The translations under genes and the position numbers were made by a program. From a virus, in IMG/VR virus record IMGVR_UViG_3300046796_000469, positions 1 to 33,016 of that record: a stretch of 33,016 nt of DNA; one strand, 5' to 3'. Positions within the stretch are counted from its first letter, which is position 1. Every line of letters starts with the position of its first letter. This document shows, in pieces, positions 7,229 to 22,566 of this stretch. The notes below the pieces were generated by a model, which worked only from the letters and a program-made list of their open reading frames with translations, had not been told where the DNA came from and did not search any database.

Positions 7229-7762
7229 CTACATCGGCGTGATCAGATCCATCGCGGGCACCGGCAGCGAGGGGTGCGCCGGAGGGAGCGGGACCTCGCG
7301 CGGCGGATCGAAGACAAACAGCAGGGTGTCGGTCTCCTCGGGCACGCCTTCGACGAGCGTGCGCACCAGCACCGGGATCGCCGGGTCGGCGCCGAGCCAG
7401 AGCGTCATGTCGACGATGGTGGTCAGCTCGGTGTCGGAGACGAAGGTGGTCGGCTCATCCTGGCTCGCGAAGTTGATCACCGAGCTGGCGTCGAAGCCGG
7501 AGCCGATGACGCGGATCGCGAAGGTCGGGTCGCCGATCGCGGCTGAGGGCGGCAGCAGTGACGTGAGCGCGGTCGTCGGCGCATCGACGTCGCGAGCGAC
7601 CGCGCGGCCACCCACGCCGGTGCCTTTCGGCTGCACGACGGGCGGGGCCTCGCGCGCGGGGAGATCGTGGTCGGGATGCGCACCGGGGTGCTTGCCCGCC
7701 TGGAACGCTTTCTCCGCGTCGGCTTCTTCCTTGATCTCCGGTCGATCATCCTTCTTCGTCAT
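7229..7762 (-). CDS. IPT/TIG (immunoglobulin-like) domain virion protein, 177 aa
   Basis: A 177-residue protein. The N-terminal third (1-60) is charged and probably disordered (KKDDRPEIKEEADAEKAF). From about residue 64 there is an IPT/TIG-type Ig-like fold pattern: L-x-x-L-x-P-x-x-A-x-x-G at the first strand, then I-x-V-x-GSGF near 84-90, a D-x-S-S-V-I-x-F turn, and alternating strands (TELTTIVDM, PVLVRT). The GSGF turn in the second strand is characteristic. Such domains often decorate phage heads or tails and are thought to give weak attachment to surface glycans. The gene sits upstream of the scaffold in the virion operon. The Pro-rich C-terminus ends at TAG 7229. Confidence 0.8.
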   Translation of the reverse strand: MTKKDDRPEIKEEADAEKAFQAGKHPGAHPDHDLPAREAPPVVQPKGTGVGGRAVARDVDAPTTALTSLLPPSAAIGDPTFAIRVIGSGFDASSVINFASQDEPTTFVSDTELTTIVDMTLWLGADPAIPVLVRTLVEGVPEETDTLLFVFDPPREVPLPPAHPSLPVPAMDLITPM

Positions 7763-10539: not shown

Positions 10540-12165
10540 TCACCTCACCGGCTGCACGGGCGGCGGCGTGCCGACCTGGTTGCGCGACGCGCCGTAGGCG
10601 GCCCCAGCGGCCAGCGGCGGGAGGAGGCCGTACTTGCGCATGATGGCGATCTTCTTGTCGTCGAACATCACGTAGTTCGACGTCTGCGGCTTGTTCGCCT
10701 CGGCGAGTCGCGCGGTCACCGAGGCGATGCGGTCCTGCAGCGAGGCGACCCACGGGTCCTCCAGCGCCATGCCCGCGCGCGGGTACGGGGCGGTGCGCCG
10801 GGTCAGCTCGGTCTGCAGATCGGCCAGCTCGCGCTGGAGATACTCCGGGTTCTCTTTCGCCCGTGAGAGCTGATCGAGATACTGCACCCCGGGGACGCCG
10901 GCATCGCGCAAGCGCGCCGACGCCGCGCTCGGGTCGCCGAGCTGCGTGGCGAGATCCTGGTAGAGCGCTTCGCCGTAGTCGCGCGCGTGTCCTGCCGACA
11001 TCTCCGCCCGCGCCTGGGCGACGGTGTCGGCCGCGCTGCGGCTGCCGAGCGTGCCGCTGTGATAGCGGACGGCGCCGCCCGCGTCGCGCTGCACGACGGT
11101 CCACTGGCCGGGCGTGGCGCTCGGGCCAAACGTCCCCGCCGCGACATCGGCAGGCGTGACCTGGTGCGGCTGCCACTGCCACGCGGTGGGATTTTTCCCG
11201 ACCTGCTGCCCGGCGAACGCCTGCTGAATGTGCGGCGACTGCTCGCGCAACGGTTTGTCCCAGGCAAGCAGATGCTGCGGGTCGACGTTGAGGTTGACCT
11301 CGTACATGTGCCCGGGCTTCGACAGCGACACGCCCGCCTCTTGCATCCGGTGCAGCGAGAGCCGTTGATCGCGGAGGGTGTTGTAGAGCGTGGAGTCTTT
11401 CTGGGCGATGGCGTTGTTCAGGCCATTCTCCAGCTCGCCGTCGATCATGCTGAGCGCGTCCTCGACGGCGAGCGGACGCCCCAGGCTCGCGTACTGGTGC
11501 GCTTTGGTCGCGAGGCGCGTGGCGATCATCTGATCGGCGTCCTTCCCGAGGAAGAGCGCCGACGGCGTCGCGGGTGTCGAGGGAACGAGCTGCCCGCCCA
11601 CGAAGACGTCGGGGCGCGTGGAGAGACTCGCGCGGTAGGTTTCCGCGGTGGGCTCGGCGCCCGCGAAGTAGATCCCGCGCCCGTAGCTGGCGGCGCCCTG
11701 GCCGGTGCCGATCTTGGAGATGTCGAAGCGATCGAAGTCGTGCGGTGAGCCGTGGTAGGCGCGAATGCCCTGCGCCGCCTCCTCGCCCGCGGTGAGCGCG
11801 TTGCGGCCGGTGACCAGGGCCTTCGCCCCGCCGACCAGCGGCATCGCGGCCATCGCCAGCTCGCCGGCTTTCGCGGCCTGCGTGTCGCCGCCGCCGCCGA
11901 CCACCGCGCCGCGGATCGCTTCGGTCGCCGCGCCGATCGGATCGTGGGTGATGCGCTGCCAGAGTGACTGCTGCAGCTCGGGGTTGGGCAGCGGGGTGTC
12001 GGGGCGGCCGGTGGTCGGCAGCGTCGGCAGGATCGTGCGCGGGTAGCGCGGCGTCGTCGCCGACAGGCCGGTGACGACCGTGCCGGCGTCGAGCGGCTGG
12101 CGCGGGCCCTGCCACGGCGCGTCGGAGGTCGGGTAGCGCGGATCGGAGGTCTGGGGGTCAGGCAT
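10540..12165 (-). CDS. ADP-ribosyltransferase-like domain protein, 541 aa
   Basis: A 541-residue protein. Residues 1-70 are Pro-rich. Residues 80-130 are Ala/Gly-rich and helical (GAVVGGGGD, AAMPLVGGAKALV), like a membrane-active or linker segment. From residue 136 it carries a phage ADP-ribosyltransferase-like pattern: AYHGSPHDFDRFD (H138 is the candidate first triad residue), then GAASYGRGIYFA (161-167; Y161 or the later Y166 as second). Near the C-terminus SNYVMFDDKKI (about 496-506) corresponds to the closing strand of that fold. This combination is typical of polyvalent or injected phage proteins. The target, and whether it is active, are unknown. Its position beside the portal suggests packaging in the head and delivery at infection. 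The start overlaps the preceding gene by 8 bases. Confidence 0.78.
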   Translation of the reverse strand: MPDPQTSDPRYPTSDAPWQGPRQPLDAGTVVTGLSATTPRYPRTILPTLPTTGRPDTPLPNPELQQSLWQRITHDPIGAATEAIRGAVVGGGGDTQAAKAGELAMAAMPLVGGAKALVTGRNALTAGEEAAQGIRAYHGSPHDFDRFDISKIGTGQGAASYGRGIYFAGAEPTAETYRASLSTRPDVFVGGQLVPSTPATPSALFLGKDADQMIATRLATKAHQYASLGRPLAVEDALSMIDGELENGLNNAIAQKDSTLYNTLRDQRLSLHRMQEAGVSLSKPGHMYEVNLNVDPQHLLAWDKPLREQSPHIQQAFAGQQVGKNPTAWQWQPHQVTPADVAAGTFGPSATPGQWTVVQRDAGGAVRYHSGTLGSRSAADTVAQARAEMSAGHARDYGEALYQDLATQLGDPSAASARLRDAGVPGVQYLDQLSRAKENPEYLQRELADLQTELTRRTAPYPRAGMALEDPWVASLQDRIASVTARLAEANKPQTSNYVMFDDKKIAIMRKYGLLPPLAAGAAYGASRNQVGTPPPVQPVR

Positions 12166-15722: not shown

Positions 15723-16160
15723 TCAGGCGCCGTGGTAGAAGAGTTCATCCTCGATGCGCCCGACCACCGCGCGCATCTCCTGCTCGACCGAATGGCCACG
15801 CTTGCGCGCGCGGTGCTGCAGCTCCTCCAGCTGGCCGGGCGTGAACGGGAGGCGCACGTCGCCGATGCGGATGGAGGCGAGGCGCTCGACCGCCTTGACG
15901 AGGTCGGCGGGGGTGCGGGTGGTGCCCAGGCCGGTGATCTCTTCGATCGTGTTGCACTCGGCGCGCGAGAGGTGCAAGCCAGGCGTGACTTCGATCGCGC
16001 TGGCGTAGTCGCCCAGCAGCTTGTGGATCCGATTCAGGCTGTCTTCCAGCTGCTCCTTGATCGCGCCGCGGCTAGGCGCGGGAGCGGTCGTCGCCGAAGT
16101 AGAGCCCTTCTTGTCCGGCGTCGGTGAGGGAGTAGACATCGTCGCTGACCGTGTCGCCAT
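15723..16160 (-). CDS. Ribbon-helix-helix-like protein overlapping the terminase end, 145 aa
   Basis: The open frame begins well inside the terminase gene. ATG 16160 is the best start because GGAG lies 7 bases upstream; ATG 16139 is an alternative without a ribosome site. Either overlaps the terminase end by 68-89 bases in another frame. Residues 1-30 are Ser/Thr/Pro-rich, 35-60 a helix (AIKEQLEDSLNRIHKLL). The C-terminal 45 residues (DVRLPFTPGQLEELQHRARKRGHSVEQEMRAVVGRIEDEL) have the strand-helix-GHSVEQE-helix pattern of Arc/FitA-type ribbon-helix-helix DNA-binding domains. It may be a regulator or a packaging accessory. Assignment is by pattern only. Confidence 0.72.
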   Translation of the reverse strand: MATRSATMSTPSPTPDKKGSTSATTAPAPSRGAIKEQLEDSLNRIHKLLGDYASAIEVTPGLHLSRAECNTIEEITGLGTTRTPADLVKAVERLASIRIGDVRLPFTPGQLEELQHRARKRGHSVEQEMRAVVGRIEDELFYHGA

Positions 16161-18402
16161 GTTCGATCTCCAGGTCGTCGGCTTCCTCAGCGGTCGCCGG
16201 CGAATTGCGATAGTCCAGGCGGGCGCGCTCGCCGCGCTCCTGGTTGAAGGTGTCCAGAGCGGCCTTGCGGCGCCGGCGCTCGGCGACCGGTTCGATCTCC
16301 CCGCCCGACATGCGCCACGCGACGTAGTAGCCGATCGCACTGCTCATCACCGCGTCGTCGTGCTGGCCGCGGGCGGCCTCGGCTTCCCCGATTGTCGAGG
16401 CGGTCACGAAGTGGCGCAACTCCCCCCTGGTGATCGGACTGTTGAGGATGAAGTCGGGCAGGGTCGAGACCGGGTCGATCGTGGTGATCGCGCCGTAGTA
16501 GGAGGCCAGGAGCAGCGGGCGGGTGCGCGGGCTGGTCATCCAGCCGATGCGGGTCGAGTAGCGGCGGCTGGGGGTGGCGGCGTCGGCATACTCCCAGACG
16601 TAGAAGTAGCTGTAGCCCAGGTGCAGCTGCAGCGTGTCCTGGGTGGCCAGGCCGTGGTTGTTGGTCTCGATCGCCGCCATCGCCTCGACGCCGTCGGCGT
16701 CGCAGTAGTAGCGGCCGATGGCGTCGGCGATGAAGGCCAGCGCCTTGGGGTCGAGCTTGTTGGTGCAGTACTGCGCGACCTGCTCGGCGGGCTCTTCGAT
16801 CGTCGGCTGGCGGATGACGTCGATGATCGAGTAGTCGAGCCCGAGGCCGTCGCTGACGTCGACCGACATGATGTAGCGGCGCGGGCCGCGGGGGCGCGGA
16901 TACTCCCAGATGGCGAAGACCGATTGGCGCAGGTTGGGGAGCTGCTTGAGCTGCGCGGGGTCGAGGCGGCGGAAGCCGTAGCCGGGCGGCACCGGGTTGG
17001 TGTCGTGCGCCAGGGCCGAGCCGCGCAGGCCGCCGTGCGGCGAGAGCGGCGGGACCGGACGCTTGGGCTGCAGATCGATCGAGCCGGGGGCGAGGAGCGA
17101 CTCCGCGTCACTGGGCGCCATCGCCTCGCGCCGCAGGCGGGCGATGTCCATCGCCGGCTCGACGACCCAGACGTCCTTCAGCGGGCGGATCGATCCGGCG
17201 CGGTCGATCGCTTCGAGCTGCTCCAGGGTGAAGACCGAGCGTCCCGCGTACTGGAAGCACTCGTGATCGTCGGCCGGATACTCCTTGAGGAACTTGTAGA
17301 GCAGGCCCTTGGCCTCGTAGAAGCGGCGGGTGGTCTCGTACCAATAGAGCTGCTCGCGGGAGAGGGTGACCGTCTTGCCGCCATACCACTTCGGCGAGTC
17401 GCGCTCGCACTTGGCGGCGTGCGCCAGGGTCGAGACGGAGGGGGACCAGTCGACCGGGGCGGGCAGCGCGTACTTCTTCGGCTCGGCACTCCACGGGATG
17501 AAGACGTTGGAGAAGCGGCCTTCACCCGCGCCGCTGGCGAGCCAGTGGGTGTGCCACCAGTCGCCGGCAAACTCCGCGGTCGCTTCGTAGAGCACCAGGG
17601 TGTCGGGCGCGTAGGGGATGGCGGGGAGCAGCGCCGTGTCGAGCTGCTCGGGGTTCTCCCAGGTCGGCAGCTCGGAGATGTGGACGACCGAGTAGGTCTG
17701 GCCGCGGCCGATCGATCCCTTGTTGCCTTCGACGCCGCTGACTGACTGGAGCGCACCGCGGGTCGACTTGCCCCACGCCGTCTTGAGCGACGAGCTGTTG
17801 GAGAGCGTCAGCTCGCGGTTCTTGGTGAAGTAGATCTTGTCGGGGCGCAGGAACCAGGGCAGCTGGTCGTAGAGGCGCACCACCATGCGGAACAGGTACC
17901 CCGCCTGCTCCTCGACGTCAGCGCCGCTGAGGCCGCGGATGTGCGCGCGGGTGACCAGGCGGTGGGCGACCAGCGCTTCGGAGAGGGTGGAGACCCCGAG
18001 CTGGCGCGCCTTGAGGATGTTGAGGAGGAGGCCGTCGGGGCTGCCGCTTTTCACATGCGCGAGCTGCAGGCGTGCGAGCTGGTCGAGCACCAGCTGCTGG
18101 CTCTCCCAGAGCGGGCAGAGGCGGCGCAGGCCGTGGCCTTCTTCGTCGATCCAGCAGAAGCGCTCGGCGAAGTAGGGGAAGTCGAAGATCACGCGCAGCT
18201 TGGTCGCGTTGATGAAGCGCTGCTCCTCCTGGTCGAGCGGGCGGAGCATCTGGCCGGTGGCGTCGTCGCGCGCCTGCATCACCGCGGCGGTCAGCACCGC
18301 GGCGTCGTCGGTCGAGTACCAGGGCAGGCCGTCAGGGAAGACGCCGCGGAAGTCGTGCTCGACCTGGGCTTCGTCCTCGGCGATGAGATCGGGATGGTAC
18401 AT
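16072..18402 (-). CDS. terL: Terminase large subunit, 776 aa
   Basis: A 776-residue packaging motor. The ATPase domain has the Walker A box KARQLGVST (131-139), of the terminase RQxGxST type, and the Walker B strand YSVVHISE (237-244), with E244 as likely catalytic carboxylate. The C-terminal nuclease domain has IMSVDVSDG (D515), AAIETNNHG (E579) and HDDAVMSS (D682/D683), matching the RNase-H-like three-carboxylate metal site. It translocates DNA through the portal and cuts the concatemer. ATG 18402 has a GGGGAG site upstream. A family-typical ATPase-nuclease gap is lengthened here by a Pro-rich insert at about 430-475. The gene follows the probable small subunit by 18 bases. Confidence 0.95.
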   Translation of the reverse strand: MYHPDLIAEDEAQVEHDFRGVFPDGLPWYSTDDAAVLTAAVMQARDDATGQMLRPLDQEEQRFINATKLRVIFDFPYFAERFCWIDEEGHGLRRLCPLWESQQLVLDQLARLQLAHVKSGSPDGLLLNILKARQLGVSTLSEALVAHRLVTRAHIRGLSGADVEEQAGYLFRMVVRLYDQLPWFLRPDKIYFTKNRELTLSNSSSLKTAWGKSTRGALQSVSGVEGNKGSIGRGQTYSVVHISELPTWENPEQLDTALLPAIPYAPDTLVLYEATAEFAGDWWHTHWLASGAGEGRFSNVFIPWSAEPKKYALPAPVDWSPSVSTLAHAAKCERDSPKWYGGKTVTLSREQLYWYETTRRFYEAKGLLYKFLKEYPADDHECFQYAGRSVFTLEQLEAIDRAGSIRPLKDVWVVEPAMDIARLRREAMAPSDAESLLAPGSIDLQPKRPVPPLSPHGGLRGSALAHDTNPVPPGYGFRRLDPAQLKQLPNLRQSVFAIWEYPRPRGPRRYIMSVDVSDGLGLDYSIIDVIRQPTIEEPAEQVAQYCTNKLDPKALAFIADAIGRYYCDADGVEAMAAIETNNHGLATQDTLQLHLGYSYFYVWEYADAATPSRRYSTRIGWMTSPRTRPLLLASYYGAITTIDPVSTLPDFILNSPITRGELRHFVTASTIGEAEAARGQHDDAVMSSAIGYYVAWRMSGGEIEPVAERRRRKAALDTFNQERGERARLDYRNSPATAEEADDLEIEHGDTVSDDVYSLTDAGQEGLYFGDDRSRA

Positions 18403-18420: not shown

Positions 18421-19311
18421 TCAGCTGGGGAGCGGCGCGTCGGCGTCCTCCTCATCGTCGTCGATGTCTGAAGGGGCGTCGGGATCTTCCGGCTCGTCGC
18501 GCGGCGTGCGATCTTCGGCGGGGTCGTCGACCGGGTGCGGCGGTTCGCGCGGGTCGTCGCGCAGCTCGGCGTCGACCAGGCGCATCGGCGCCGAGGCGCG
18601 CTGCCGCCGCGGCGAGTAGAGCAGATCGCCCACCGCCTGCTGCAGCTGCTCCAGGGAGCCGGGGCCGGTCGAGAGCGCCTGGTTGGCGTTGATCTGGTTC
18701 TGCTGCACCATCACGCCTGCCTTGCGCTCGATGAGGCGCCCGAGTTCCAGCGCGAGTTTCTGCCGATCGAGATCGGGGGCGACCAGCACGGTGCCCACGC
18801 CGCGGCACGCGGGGCAGTCGGAGGTGCCCGGGGTGGTCGGGGCGCCGTAGCAGCGCGGGCAGGGCTCGGGCAGCGGGAGCGCGCGGCGCATGACGTCGGC
18901 CACGATCGCCGGCAGCTCCTGGGTGATGCGCTGCGCGGCGTCGATGTGCGCCTGGACGAAGAGCGCTTTCTTGTAGCTGGCGAAGAGGTCAGCCACCGTG
19001 AGGCCCGCGTAGGCGCAGAGCCGGCGCAGCGACCAGCTGGCGTAGGCCGGGTCGAGCAGGCAGTTGACCACCTTGTCGCTGCAGGTGTCGGAGTCGGCGA
19101 CCGCCAGGGTCTGCAGCAGCTTGGTGCGGCCGCCGACCGCGGTGAGGAAGGTCTCGATCGCCTGGCCGGCGAGATCCAGCTCGGTGTCGCTGAGCACGGT
19201 GGGCGTGCGTGCGGCGGCGGGGACGAGCGCCGAGGTCTGCCGGTGCGTCGTGCGGCGCTGCGTGGTGCTGCGCGCGGATTGACCGGGCGTGTTCTGCAGG
19301 CGGATCGACAT
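18421..19311 (-). CDS. Probable terminase small subunit with DnaJ-like zinc finger, 296 aa
   Basis: A 296-residue protein directly upstream of the large terminase. Residues 1-40 are basic and disordered. Residues 42-145 are helical, with a helix-turn-helix-like part (SWSLRRLCAYAGLTVADLFASYKKAL, about 92-117), like small terminase DNA-recognition domains. Residues 151-173 hold two C-x-x-C-x-G knuckles (CPRCYG and CPACRGVG) resembling half of a DnaJ zinc finger. A charged helix follows, and then a long acidic tail (last 50 residues, DDDEEDAD). Small terminases select phage DNA for packaging. ATG 19311 overlaps the preceding stop. Function is inferred from position and helix-turn-helix pattern. 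Confidence 0.8.
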   Translation of the reverse strand: MSIRLQNTPGQSARSTTQRRTTHRQTSALVPAAARTPTVLSDTELDLAGQAIETFLTAVGGRTKLLQTLAVADSDTCSDKVVNCLLDPAYASWSLRRLCAYAGLTVADLFASYKKALFVQAHIDAAQRITQELPAIVADVMRRALPLPEPCPRCYGAPTTPGTSDCPACRGVGTVLVAPDLDRQKLALELGRLIERKAGVMVQQNQINANQALSTGPGSLEQLQQAVGDLLYSPRRQRASAPMRLVDAELRDDPREPPHPVDDPAEDRTPRDEPEDPDAPSDIDDDEEDADAPLPS

Positions 19312-19553
19312 CAGCCCTCGCTCGCCGCGCCCGCGGTCTCGACCACCGAGTCGGGATCGTTGAACACCACCGCCTTGATCGCCCACATCGCGGTCTGCTC
19401 GTTGTTGGTCAGCGCCACCGACTGCTGCCGGCTGGGCGGGCACAGCTCTTTGATCTTCCGCTCGACCAGCGAGAACAGTTCGCGCAGCTCGGTGATGCGC
19501 GCGAGGCCGTCGGGGCTGGGCGCGTGGTAGGCGTAGGGCTTGTCGATGGGCAT
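19311..19553 (-). CDS. Acb2/Tad1-hook-like cyclic-nucleotide sponge candidate, 80 aa
   Basis: An 80-residue helical protein whose core, YAYHAPSPDGLARITELRE (7-25) followed by KELCPPSRQQSVALTN (35-50) and EQTAMWAIKAVV (52-63), matches the Acb2/Tad1 hook domain pattern as I recall it: (Y)-x-P-x(3)-(Q/L)-x-RI-x-x-(L/V)R, then CPPSRE-x-S-x-ALT-x-(L/N)E-x-A-x-MWA. Acb2 proteins bind cyclic di- or trinucleotides and block CBASS; Tad1 counters Thoeris. If real, this phage carries an anti-defence sponge at the head of its packaging operon. ATG 19553 has an AAGGA site upstream. Ligand binding is not proven by sequence. Confidence 0.72.
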   Translation of the reverse strand: MPIDKPYAYHAPSPDGLARITELRELFSLVERKIKELCPPSRQQSVALTNNEQTAMWAIKAVVFNDPDSVVETAGAASEG

Positions 19554-19567
19554 GGCGGCGGTCCTTG

Positions 19568-19789
19568 TCAGTCCTGGTAGCGCCGGATGACGCGATAGCC
19601 GAGCACGCTGAGCGCGATCAGCCCGGGCAGCGGCGTGGCGTAGGGCGAGCGCGGCACCAACATCGGCGGTTGCTCGCGCAGGAAGCGCGCCACCTCGCGG
19701 CGATCCGGCGTCCGCGTGGCGGTGAGCATGTCGGGCGGCAGCACCAGGCGCCGGCGATGGAAGCGCAGCGGGCGATCGGCCTGTTTCAT
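19568..19789 (-). CDS. Hypothetical basic protein with C-terminal hydrophobic helix, 73 aa
   Basis: A 73-residue protein, very basic at the N-terminus (KQADRPLRFHRRRLVLPPD), with a possible membrane-associated helix at the end (PLPGLIALSVLGYRVIRRYQD). It could be a small membrane-anchored or virion protein. The start overlaps the preceding gene by the ATGA arrangement, consistent with translational coupling. No family is recognised. Confidence 0.72.
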   Translation of the reverse strand: MKQADRPLRFHRRRLVLPPDMLTATRTPDRREVARFLREQPPMLVPRSPYATPLPGLIALSVLGYRVIRRYQD

Positions 19790-20163
19790 CGGCGCTCCTC
19801 CATCAGTCGAGCGAGTTCGTCGTCGCGCGCGGTGAGGCGCGCGGCCAGGTCGTGGGTCTTCTCGTCGGCCAAGTGGATCAGGATCTCCTCATCATCCGGG
19901 GTGTGGCCGGTGTGCGCCTGCTGCCGACTGATGAAGTCGAGCGCGAGGCTCGCTTCGACCGGGTCGAGATGGGTGACGCCGGTGTCGGCGCGCACGATCG
20001 ATCGATCGGCGGGCGAGAGCGGCGCGAGCTGCGGGGCGTAGCGGTCGGCGAGGCGCGCCAGCAGCTGGGTCTGGGCGTCGAGTGTGCCCGCGATGCGTGC
20101 GAGATCCGCGCTGATGCGCCGGAGCAGGAGCGCTGCGGCGAGGCGACGGAACAGGGCGGGCAC
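19786..20163 (-). CDS. Hypothetical coiled-coil protein, first gene of the leftward operon, 125 aa
   Basis: A 125-residue helical protein: a hydrophobic/basic N-terminus (LFRRLAAALLLRRI), a long helix with a leucine pattern (ADLARIAGTLDAQTQLLARLADRY), then HLDPVEASLALDFISRQQAHTGHTPDDEEILIHLADEKT and a charged coiled coil at the end. The usual start GTG 20163 overlaps an AGGAGG sequence, too close to act as its ribosome site, so the true start may be a later non-ATG codon such as CTG 20154. It lies 27 bases from the 18-bp motif at 20190-20207 and probably begins the packaging operon. Function is unknown. Confidence 0.72.
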   Translation of the reverse strand: MPALFRRLAAALLLRRISADLARIAGTLDAQTQLLARLADRYAPQLAPLSPADRSIVRADTGVTHLDPVEASLALDFISRQQAHTGHTPDDEEILIHLADEKTHDLAARLTARDDELARLMEERR

Positions 20164-20189
20164 CTCCTGACCCTCACCCGAGTCGGGCG

Positions 20190-20207
20190 GGTTTGTCTAG
20201 TCCCCCC
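20190..20207 (-). promoter_or_regulatory. 18-bp intergenic motif, copy 2
   Basis: GGTTTGTCTAGTCCCCCC, identical to 8791-8808. Read leftward, 26 bases separate it from the GTG at 20163, almost the same distance as at copy 1 (27 bases). Equal spacing to two leftward gene starts favours a leftward promoter or leader element. An AT-rich stretch lies immediately on the upstream (right) side. Confidence 0.65.
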
Positions 20208-20264
20208 TGCAGAAAATTTGGCGGGAAAAATTTATGGCTGAGTGCGGCTGTGCCTGGTTCCATA

Positions 20265-20279
20265 CCCCCCGGCGGGGGG
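20265..20279. terminator. Six-G:C hairpin with 3-base loop
   Basis: CCCCCC at 20265-20270 pairs with GGGGGG at 20274-20279 around GGC. There is no T-tract after it on either strand, so it is not a standard intrinsic terminator. It could be a pause, attenuator or protein-binding site between the two divergent units. Confidence 0.35.
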
Positions 20280-20322
20280 CTCGCGGACAATGACCGGCCC
20301 CTACGCGCCCTGTCCGGCCCGG

Positions 20323-20394
20323 CCAGCTGCAGGCGCGCGGCGCCCACCAGCTGCAGGCGCGTCGGCCCTGCCAGCTGGGCTGAGCTGGGCTGGG
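20323..20394. repeat. 24-bp iteron-like direct repeats (three units)
   Basis: CCAGCTG recurs at exactly 24-base intervals, at 20323, 20347 and 20371. The first two units share CCAGCTGCAGGCGCG (15 bases), and the third diverges into the GGGCT tract. A further ACCAGCTGCC occurs at 20431. Regular spacing near two turns of DNA is typical of iterons or multi-site protein binding. Confidence 0.55.
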
Positions 20395-20420
20395 CTGGGC
20401 TGGGCGGGGCGAGGGGCGGG
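20377..20420 (+). repeat. GGGCT tandem tract, G-quadruplex-capable
   Basis: Runs of three or four G occur at 20377, 20387, 20392, 20397, 20402, 20406, 20413 and 20418, mostly separated by CT or C. This satisfies the simple four-tract G-quadruplex rule several times over, with one- and two-base loops. All G runs lie on the plus strand, that is, the non-template strand for rightward transcription. Confidence 0.7.
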
Positions 20421-20630
20421 ACCAGCTGCCGGGGAGCCGGGAGGGGCGAAAGCGCACCACCTTCGCCCCCAAAGCGAAAGTCTCCAGAGCTAAGCTGTTG
20501 CAGCGTAAGGAGTTATCGGCGAGCGTCTGATAAGGAAGGTTATGTTACCCTGCGGCTGGGCTGGGCAAGAGTCGTGCCAGCCTCGCGAGGCGCTGCCTGT
20601 TGTCACCTTTTCGTCAGTCTCGATGCACTT

Positions 20631-20715
20631 CTGTCAGCCTGACAGGTGACTTTCCCCGGCAGCTGCAGGCCCGATCAGCGGTTTTCCTGACAATCTGACA
20701 GGTTGACAGGTTGGC
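20631..20715. promoter_or_regulatory. TGACAG operator-like cluster
   Basis: CTGTCAG-C-CTGACAG at 20631-20645 is a perfect 7-bp inverted repeat with one central base. Further half-sites follow as direct copies: CTGACA (20687-20692), CTGACAGG (20695-20702) and TTGACAGG (20703-20710). The last one contains the -35 hexamer of the promoter below. This is the layout of a repressor or activator binding region over an early promoter. The cognate protein is not identified. Confidence 0.55.
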
Positions 20716-20732
20716 GAGGTTCGTGCTCTACT
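20703..20732 (+). promoter_or_regulatory. Rightward sigma70-like promoter with extended -10
   Basis: TTGACA (20703-20708) is a perfect -35 hexamer. After 18 bases comes TCTACT (20727-20732, four of six matches), preceded by TGC as an extended -10. Transcription would begin near 20740 and run into the rightward gene block after a leader of about 510 bases. The -35 box lies inside a TGACAGG repeat, so it is probably regulated. Confidence 0.55.
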
Positions 20733-20950
20733 GCTGAGTGGGCCGACGCCCCGACACCGACCCGACGCTCTCTGACAACCGAAGCGCCCAGCCAGAACCA
20801 CCGAGGCGGGCCGAATACCCCAACAGCGCGTCAGCCCGCAGAGGGCGGCGTGGACCGTAAGGCAGGCCATGGAAGGCCAGCCGAGACCGGCTCCCGCCAG
20901 ACAGATAGCGACGTAGCACGCAGGCTTTGAGACTCGCACAGTGGAAAGGA

Positions 20951-20969
20951 GGCGCCCGGAGAGGGCGCC
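20951..20969 (+). other. Leader stem-loop
   Basis: GGCGCCC (20951-20957) pairs perfectly with GGGCGCC (20963-20969) around a 5-base GGAGA loop. An AAAGGA sequence precedes it. No T-tract follows. It is part of the long structured leader of the rightward unit. Confidence 0.45.
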
Positions 20970-21085
20970 CCTCAAGTGCAGCCGCTCACCACTTCAGTCT
21001 CATACATCGCCGCGCCGGTAGTCCCGGCACCGTGCAAGGTCGGCTCTGACCACTGAACGCCAGACTTGGGAAGCGCACCGCTCTA

Positions 21086-21251: not shown

Positions 21252-21446
21252 ATGAACCGTGACCGCCTCTACACCTACACCGTCTGCCACGCACCCAACG
21301 CGCTGGGCCTGACCGGCGACTGGCTGATCTATGACGGCGACAGCGACCGGCTGGTGGGGCGCATGGCCCCCGAGACGGCCCGCCGGATCTACGGCGCGCT
21401 GCAGCTGCACCCCCGCACCGAGACCGACCCCAGCACCACCACGTAG
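21252..21446 (+). CDS. Hypothetical small protein, first rightward gene, 64 aa
   Basis: A 64-residue protein from ATG 21252 (MNRDRLYTYTVCHAPNALGLTGDWLIYDGDSDRLVGRM…). The frame extends upstream without a better start, and the AGGACACC element fixes the start here. It has a short beta-rich fold (DWLIYDGDSDRLVGRM) and then an amphipathic helix (PETARRIYGALQL). No domain is recognised. It is the first gene after the long leader, ahead of the DUF932 gene. Confidence 0.72.
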   Translation: MNRDRLYTYTVCHAPNALGLTGDWLIYDGDSDRLVGRMAPETARRIYGALQLHPRTETDPSTTT

Positions 21447-21504
21447 CGACCGACCGACCGGCGACCCGAGACCGGCTGCAGACATCCCGCCTGCGGCCCA
21501 CCAT

Positions 21505-21533
21505 GCTCCCTGCGGGGAGCGGAAAGCGACACC
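21505..21533 (+). promoter_or_regulatory. Start-associated element 2 (DUF932 gene)
   Basis: GCTCCC-TGCG-GGGAGC (21505-21520) is a perfect 6-bp hairpin with a tetraloop. It is followed directly by GGAAAGCGACACC (21521-21533), a variant with one extra C relative to GGAAAGGACACC at 26572-26583. ATG 21541 follows 7 bases later. Confidence 0.6.
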
Positions 21534-21540
21534 TATCACC

Positions 21541-22566
21541 ATGTCCGCCAACATTGCGACCATCGACAACACCGACGCGATCGCCTACCTCGACTCGACC
21601 CCGTGGCACGGTTTGGGCGAGAACCTGCTGCAGCGGATGCGCGCCGCGACCCCCGACCAGTATGTGGACATCGCGCTCGACGCCGCGCGGATGCGCTACA
21701 GCGTCGGCTCCCTCCCGATGTATCTCGCGGACGGCACCCAGATCAAAGGCCACATGGCCAGCGTGCGCTACGGCCAGGACGGCACGGTCGCGGCGACCTT
21801 CGGGCCGGTCGGGGTCGGCCACACCCACATCCAGAACGAAGAGGCAGTCGCCATCCTGCGGCCCATGGCCGAGCAGTTTGGCTGCGTGCCTGCAGCCGCG
21901 GGCGCGCTGGGCGACGGGGAGCGCTGCTGGATGCTGATGCGGCTGACCGACGCAACCATCACCGTCGTGCCGGGGGATGACGTGCGCGGCTACTTCCTGC
22001 TGACGTGGGGGCACAACGGCCAGATCAGCGTGACCGGCTTGGGCACCGGCGTCCGCGTCATCTGCCAGAACACGCTGGCGCTGGCGATGCACGGGCGCAA
22101 GGCGTGGTTCACCGTGCGCCACACGGCGTCCGCCTCGCAGCGGCTGGACGAGGCGGCAGGCATCATCGCCAAGGTGATGAAGGCCATGCAGGTGACCGGC
22201 GAGACGTTCGCCAGCATGGCGGCGCGCAACCTGAGCGCTGCGGACGTGCAGGCCTTCATCACGGCGGTCATCCCCAACACCGACCCCAAGGCTGACAAGG
22301 TCAGCAAGGTCATCGAGGCGCGCCGCGAGACCATCACCCAGCTGGTGACGGTCGGCAAGGGTGCGGCCATGGCCAACCAGCTGGTCCCCGGCGTCAGCCT
22401 CTGGGGCGCCTACAACGCCATCACCGAGTACTTCGACCATGTGCGCCCCGCTGAGGCGCAGAGCGAGGCGGGCCTGCTCAACGCGCAGACGAGCGCGTTG
22501 TTTGGCGGCAACGCCGACATCAAGGCGCAGGCGCTGACCGTCGCCCAGCAGCTGCTGGCGAGCTAG
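21541..22566 (+). CDS. DUF932 phage/plasmid-like protein, 341 aa
   Basis: A 341-residue protein that I recognise as a DUF932 (phage/plasmid-like, TIGR03299-type) member. Characteristic features are the early PWHGLGENL box (residues 21-29), RYSVGSLPMYL, then the G-x-V-G-x-x-(Y/H) region GVGHTHIQNEEAV (about 87-99), a VICQNTLALAM box (about 173-183) and the R-H-T-A-S sequence at about 195. DUF932 proteins are common in early regions of phages and on plasmids, and their biochemical role is unsettled. It has normal length for the family. It is preceded by a start-associated hairpin and followed by GACCGACCGGCGACCC, a sequence also found after the previous gene. Confidence 0.93.
   Translation: MSANIATIDNTDAIAYLDSTPWHGLGENLLQRMRAATPDQYVDIALDAARMRYSVGSLPMYLADGTQIKGHMASVRYGQDGTVAATFGPVGVGHTHIQNEEAVAILRPMAEQFGCVPAAAGALGDGERCWMLMRLTDATITVVPGDDVRGYFLLTWGHNGQISVTGLGTGVRVICQNTLALAMHGRKAWFTVRHTASASQRLDEAAGIIAKVMKAMQVTGETFASMAARNLSAADVQAFITAVIPNTDPKADKVSKVIEARRETITQLVTVGKGAAMANQLVPGVSLWGAYNAITEYFDHVRPAEAQSEAGLLNAQTSALFGGNADIKAQALTVAQQLLAS

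Follow-up and report, generated by a model that had tools for sequence, protein, structure and literature searches.

The question raised by this locus is whether a small gene lying among the packaging genes of a soil phage encodes a free-standing sponge of the Acb2/Tad1 family, which soaks up chemical alarm signals that bacteria use against viruses, or instead a part of the virus particle. The window (the whole stretch of DNA that was analysed) is a viral record of 33,016 bases, and the gene, here called acb2-like, runs on the minus strand from an ATG start at 19553 to 19311 and encodes an 80 amino acid product with the sequence MPIDKPYAYHAPSPDGLARITELRELFSLVERKIKELCPPSRQQSVALTNNEQTAMWAIKAVVFNDPDSVVETAGAASEG. 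The leftward operon begins with genes for a 125 amino acid protein (19786-20163, minus strand; no PHROG match and only a sub-threshold Pfam match) and a 73 amino acid protein (19568-19789, minus strand; no PHROG or Pfam match), neither with an assigned function, and continues through the acb2-like gene to a 297 amino acid protein (18421-19314, minus strand) and the 776 amino acid terminase large subunit (16072-18402, minus strand), the last recognised by PHROG matches. By its position the 297 amino acid protein is a probable small terminase, its match to phrog_17382 being weak, and an HTH small-terminase-like gene occupies the same place in a prophage-like locus of Limnoglobus roseus (L059). 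The 14 nucleotide gap between the acb2-like ATG and the upstream 73 amino acid gene (19554-19567, minus strand) contains a Shine-Dalgarno-like AAGGA 8 nucleotides before the ATG, and the TGA stop overlaps the ATG of the 297 amino acid gene as TGATG. This stop-start overlap within an operon suggests that the acb2-like gene is produced together with the packaging genes in the window phage, and late action of the protein would fit such a position. A preliminary description of the DNA was correct in giving the gene the same direction as the terminase and virion genes, and in assigning it to the packaging operon, but it is the third open reading frame of that operon and not, as was stated, its head.

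Scans for sigma-70 promoters and terminators between 18300 and 21400 gave nothing above chance, including in the stretch separating the leftward and rightward gene blocks (20164-21000), where no sigma-70-like promoter was found, and no tRNA was found. The rightward block opposite the packaging operon looks like an early region, and close to its start is a gene for a DUF932 protein (21331-22566, plus strand; E 9.8e-42). The probable small terminase contains a zinc-finger-like motif (CPRCYG...CPACRGVG) and has a weak Anti-TRAP match below the cut-off. Within the structural block, a 541 amino acid protein (10540-12165, minus strand) gave a weak match, below the curated cut-off (E 9e-05), to ART-PolyVal, the ADP-ribosyltransferase found in polyvalent proteins.

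The 80 amino acid open reading frame is a real gene and a member of the Acb2/Tad1 hairpin family rather than a chance reading frame, since it matches a family profile, has relatives at many loci and is under strong purifying selection. The match to PF24729 (Acb2/Tad1, hairpin domain; E = 1e-12) covers profile positions 1-56 of 58 and scores 48.5 bits against a curated gathering cut-off of 27 bits; the experimentally studied Acb2 proteins T4 Vs.4 and PaP2 p26 match this profile too. Relatives with 66-100% identity are encoded at 54 IMG/VR loci, and comparison with one of them (L004) showed that 50 of 70 third codon positions differ, compared to 8 second positions, with 47 synonymous and 10 non-synonymous codons. 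The core motif on which the family had been proposed is present with a different spacing, reading S-R-x-x-S-x-A-L-T-x-x-E-x-x-A-M-W-A and not ending in E-x-A-x-MWA.

An AlphaFold model built with 30 relatives (pLDDT 83) predicts two long helices, H14-37 and H42-64, packed as an antiparallel hairpin. The protein is thus hairpin only, as in a stand-alone Acb2, and the 13 residues that precede helix 1 leave no place for the N-terminal antiparallel beta-sheet domain that marks Tad1. Foldseek placed T4 Vs.4 and PaP2 Acb2, both with cGAMP, at ranks 1-3 of 350,542 chains, with E-values of 0.8-1.5 which are not significant alone, so that only the ranking is informative. The top VIA-align match was Acb2 homolog 43 with 3'cADPR (9ptq; Z 7.8, rmsd 2.4, 68 of 68 residues, 21% identity), a modest score, as expected for small hairpins, given that unrelated two-helix proteins reach Z 6.6; 7uq2 and 8h2x/8h2j were further structural matches. 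The fold would therefore not prove membership by itself, and it is the profile that does so. A PDB profile search with the 30 relatives returned only six hits, among them 9ptq, PaP2 Acb2 (8ixz/8h2j), Tad1 (8kbe) and Vs.4 (7uq2), each of these weak (E 0.009-1). A single-sequence PDB search had produced a nucleoporin match, which was discarded as chance (E 1.4), the profile search being needed instead. Comparison with the hook family by profile and structure, which the preliminary description had named as its check, thus yielded both a PF24729 match and a predicted two-helix hairpin and, together with the alignment of functional residues described below, bears out the family assignment.

Alignment with the characterised proteins places Y9 opposite T4 Y8 and PaP2 Y11, R24 opposite PaP2 K26 (a conservative change), R42 opposite PaP2 R67 and T49 opposite T4 T68, while the C-terminal D-P-D-S pairs with Q-P-E-E and Q-P-D-S of T4 and PaP2 Acb2. 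The signal-pocket positions T4 Y8, PaP2 K26 and T4 T68 thus all have counterparts here; we take PaP2 K26 to be a signal-pocket residue, and R67 presumably lines the trinucleotide site. In T4 Vs.4 the Y8A mutant is binding-deficient for cyclic dinucleotides and the escaper F82C shows diminished binding (PMC12657218), the latter residue being aligned ambiguously, at V63/F64, and the natural variant T68M also has lowered binding (PMC12657230). Y9, R24, R42, T49 and F64 are invariant across 47 distinct relatives, partly through ascertainment, as these relatives were fetched with short exact-peptide patterns. In a wider sample taking in Paenibacillus, Arthrobacter and planctomycete loci, T4 and PaP2, T49 alone is invariant, position 24 is R or K, and Y9 is replaced by H in a divergent Acb2-family protein (L084). 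The close relatives share a clade signature consisting of the N-terminus IDKPYAYHKPS and the tail FNDP.

We consider it highly probable that the gene encodes a compact, free-standing sponge of the Acb2 type. Its copies would come together, probably as a hexamer like that of characterised Acb2, and a pocket formed by Y9, R24 and T49 with the conserved C-terminal F-N-D-P tail may hold a nucleotide-derived alarm signal, made by CBASS or Thoeris-type enzymes of the host, tightly and uncut, such that the host effector would stay off once the signal was sequestered. The 80 residue sequence does not by itself reveal the ligand. A cADPR-type ligand, as in Thoeris-type systems, would be no less likely than a CBASS cyclic dinucleotide, because the closest solved relative, which is equally short, binds 3'cADPR.

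It is also possible, though we do not favour it, that the sponge acts mainly on cyclic trinucleotides (cA3, cAAG) bound at the trimer interface, against NucC-type CBASS or type III CRISPR; this is a sub-case of the sponge reading, and the confidence placed in the two overlaps. Acb2 has a higher affinity for cA3 and cAAG than for dinucleotides (reviewed in PMC12043709) and R42, the counterpart of PaP2 R67, is invariant in close relatives, but conservation is equally high at the other pocket, to which Y9, R24 and the C-terminal tail belong, and both sites may be used.

The position of the gene, whose product is 66-90% identical in related soil phages, was compared by neighbouring gene clusters, with identities assigned for terminase, AAA, UDG-PolA, PDDEXK and DUF3987. 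It lies near terminase or portal genes in 27 sequences including the window, close to replication or recombination genes (for UDG-DNA polymerase A, AAA or a PDDEXK nuclease) in 17 and elsewhere in 11. All 30 records checked contain exactly one copy; 21 of them have the same kind of terminase and 15 a strong match to the UDG-PolA protein (E below 1e-130), which puts both placements inside a single broad phage group. The acb2 gene tree (4 starred branches of 44) was too short to resolve changes of place, and these were judged on the terminase tree instead, where the packaging and replication placements require at least five changes and a locus with the gene on the replication side (L043) is sister, on short branches, to one with it on the packaging side (L032). 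In L002, whose portal and TerL are 82% and 75% identical to those of the window, the gene stands just before the portal and not before the small terminase. Outside IMG/VR, it precedes the small and large terminase in the L. roseus locus, stands two genes before the terminase in Arthrobacter phage Jasmine and adjoins SSB, near a DNA polymerase, in Paenibacillus phage Heath.

Several Paenibacillus phages carry a PF24729 gene (86 bits; L058:3989-4204) that public records label a putative phosphomannomutase, which is probably an annotation error. At the thresholds applied, neither Pfam nor PHROG matched the 177 amino acid protein encoded at 7229-7762 of the window (minus strand); of the loci fetched for the acb2-like gene, 11 contained relatives of it by tblastn, often within a few genes of the acb2-like one. 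A pattern search of bacterial genomes gave the prophage-like locus of L. roseus as its single hit, and the profile matched in 5 of 297 genomes of the class of Limnoglobus, one being Limnoglobus itself; these matches hint at the host of the window phage without fixing it. The divergent open reading frame of L084 (1444-1683), also from a genome of this class, directly follows one of 394 amino acids.

A role as regulator or sink of a metabolic nucleotide of phage or host, rather than of an immune signal, appears improbable to us: the strong conservation of the relatives fetched (66-90% identity), with no obvious diversifying core positions, would accord with it, but the variable position suggests an accessory gene and every characterised Acb2/Tad1 hairpin protein is, to our knowledge, an immune-signal sponge. 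That the hairpin was recruited for packaging or as a virion component (such as a terminase cofactor) with loss of signal binding, a role for which the preliminary description had left room, is rejected on comparative gene position as the least probable reading, since despite the recurrent terminase-side location (in the window, L001, many IMG/VR loci, the L. roseus locus and phage Jasmine) related phages whose terminase of the same kind lies elsewhere keep their single copy in the replication module, the Paenibacillus phage gene adjoins SSB, and the binding residues remain conserved. A sponge acting in trans is the best explanation, because the signal-binding residues are conserved and each phage has one copy, in either module. 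As relatives carry the gene elsewhere, its function does not depend on where in the genome it lies, and the differing positions that accompany closely related terminases speak against a virion role and favour a free sponge that rides in a late operon in the window phage; most likely the protein serves as a portable shield and not as a virion component.

The 80 amino acid protein carries the compact branch of this established sponge family into uncultivated soil phages. Interesting, though of secondary weight, is that among phages whose terminases are related the gene changes place between the replication and the packaging module with hardly any change in the protein. The timing of counter-defence thereby becomes testable, with one sponge in an early and in a late setting. 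More speculatively, and on balance rather unlikely, the compact IDKPYAYH...FNDP clade may be a sponge tuned to one signal (a cADPR isomer or one as yet undescribed) in soil bacteria, Planctomycetota possibly among them, and moved by phages between early and late modules to match the trigger of host defence, for example late with capsid proteins.

Among known systems, Acb2 homolog 43 (9ptq) belongs to the same family and, like the 80 amino acid protein, is a compact hairpin without a long insertion between the helices; in the profile alignment the two share G16, R42, S45, T49, E52, K60 and A61, but identity is about 21% and the extended IDKPYAYH N-terminus and FNDP C-terminal signature set the 80 amino acid protein apart. 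T4 Vs.4 (7uq2; 19% identity) agrees at Y8, T68, M75, W76 and P84 (Y9, T49, M56, W57 and P67 here) but has 20 extra inter-helix residues, and its gene has vs.3 and vs.5 on either side, in a group of small genes. PaP2 p26 Acb2 (8h2j; 25% identity) aligns at Y11, K26, R67, T74 and P90-D91-S92 but has 24 extra residues between its helices, and its gene is on the primase/MazG/PolA side of the PaP2 genome. The short hairpin of the 80 amino acid protein is thus due to the absence of the 20-24 residue inter-helix insertion of T4 and PaP2. Tad1 (8kbe) has a helix-2 stretch, SRENACALTHVEEALMWM, close to the motif of the 80 amino acid protein, but carries an N-terminal beta-sheet domain (PMC12043709) that the latter does without.
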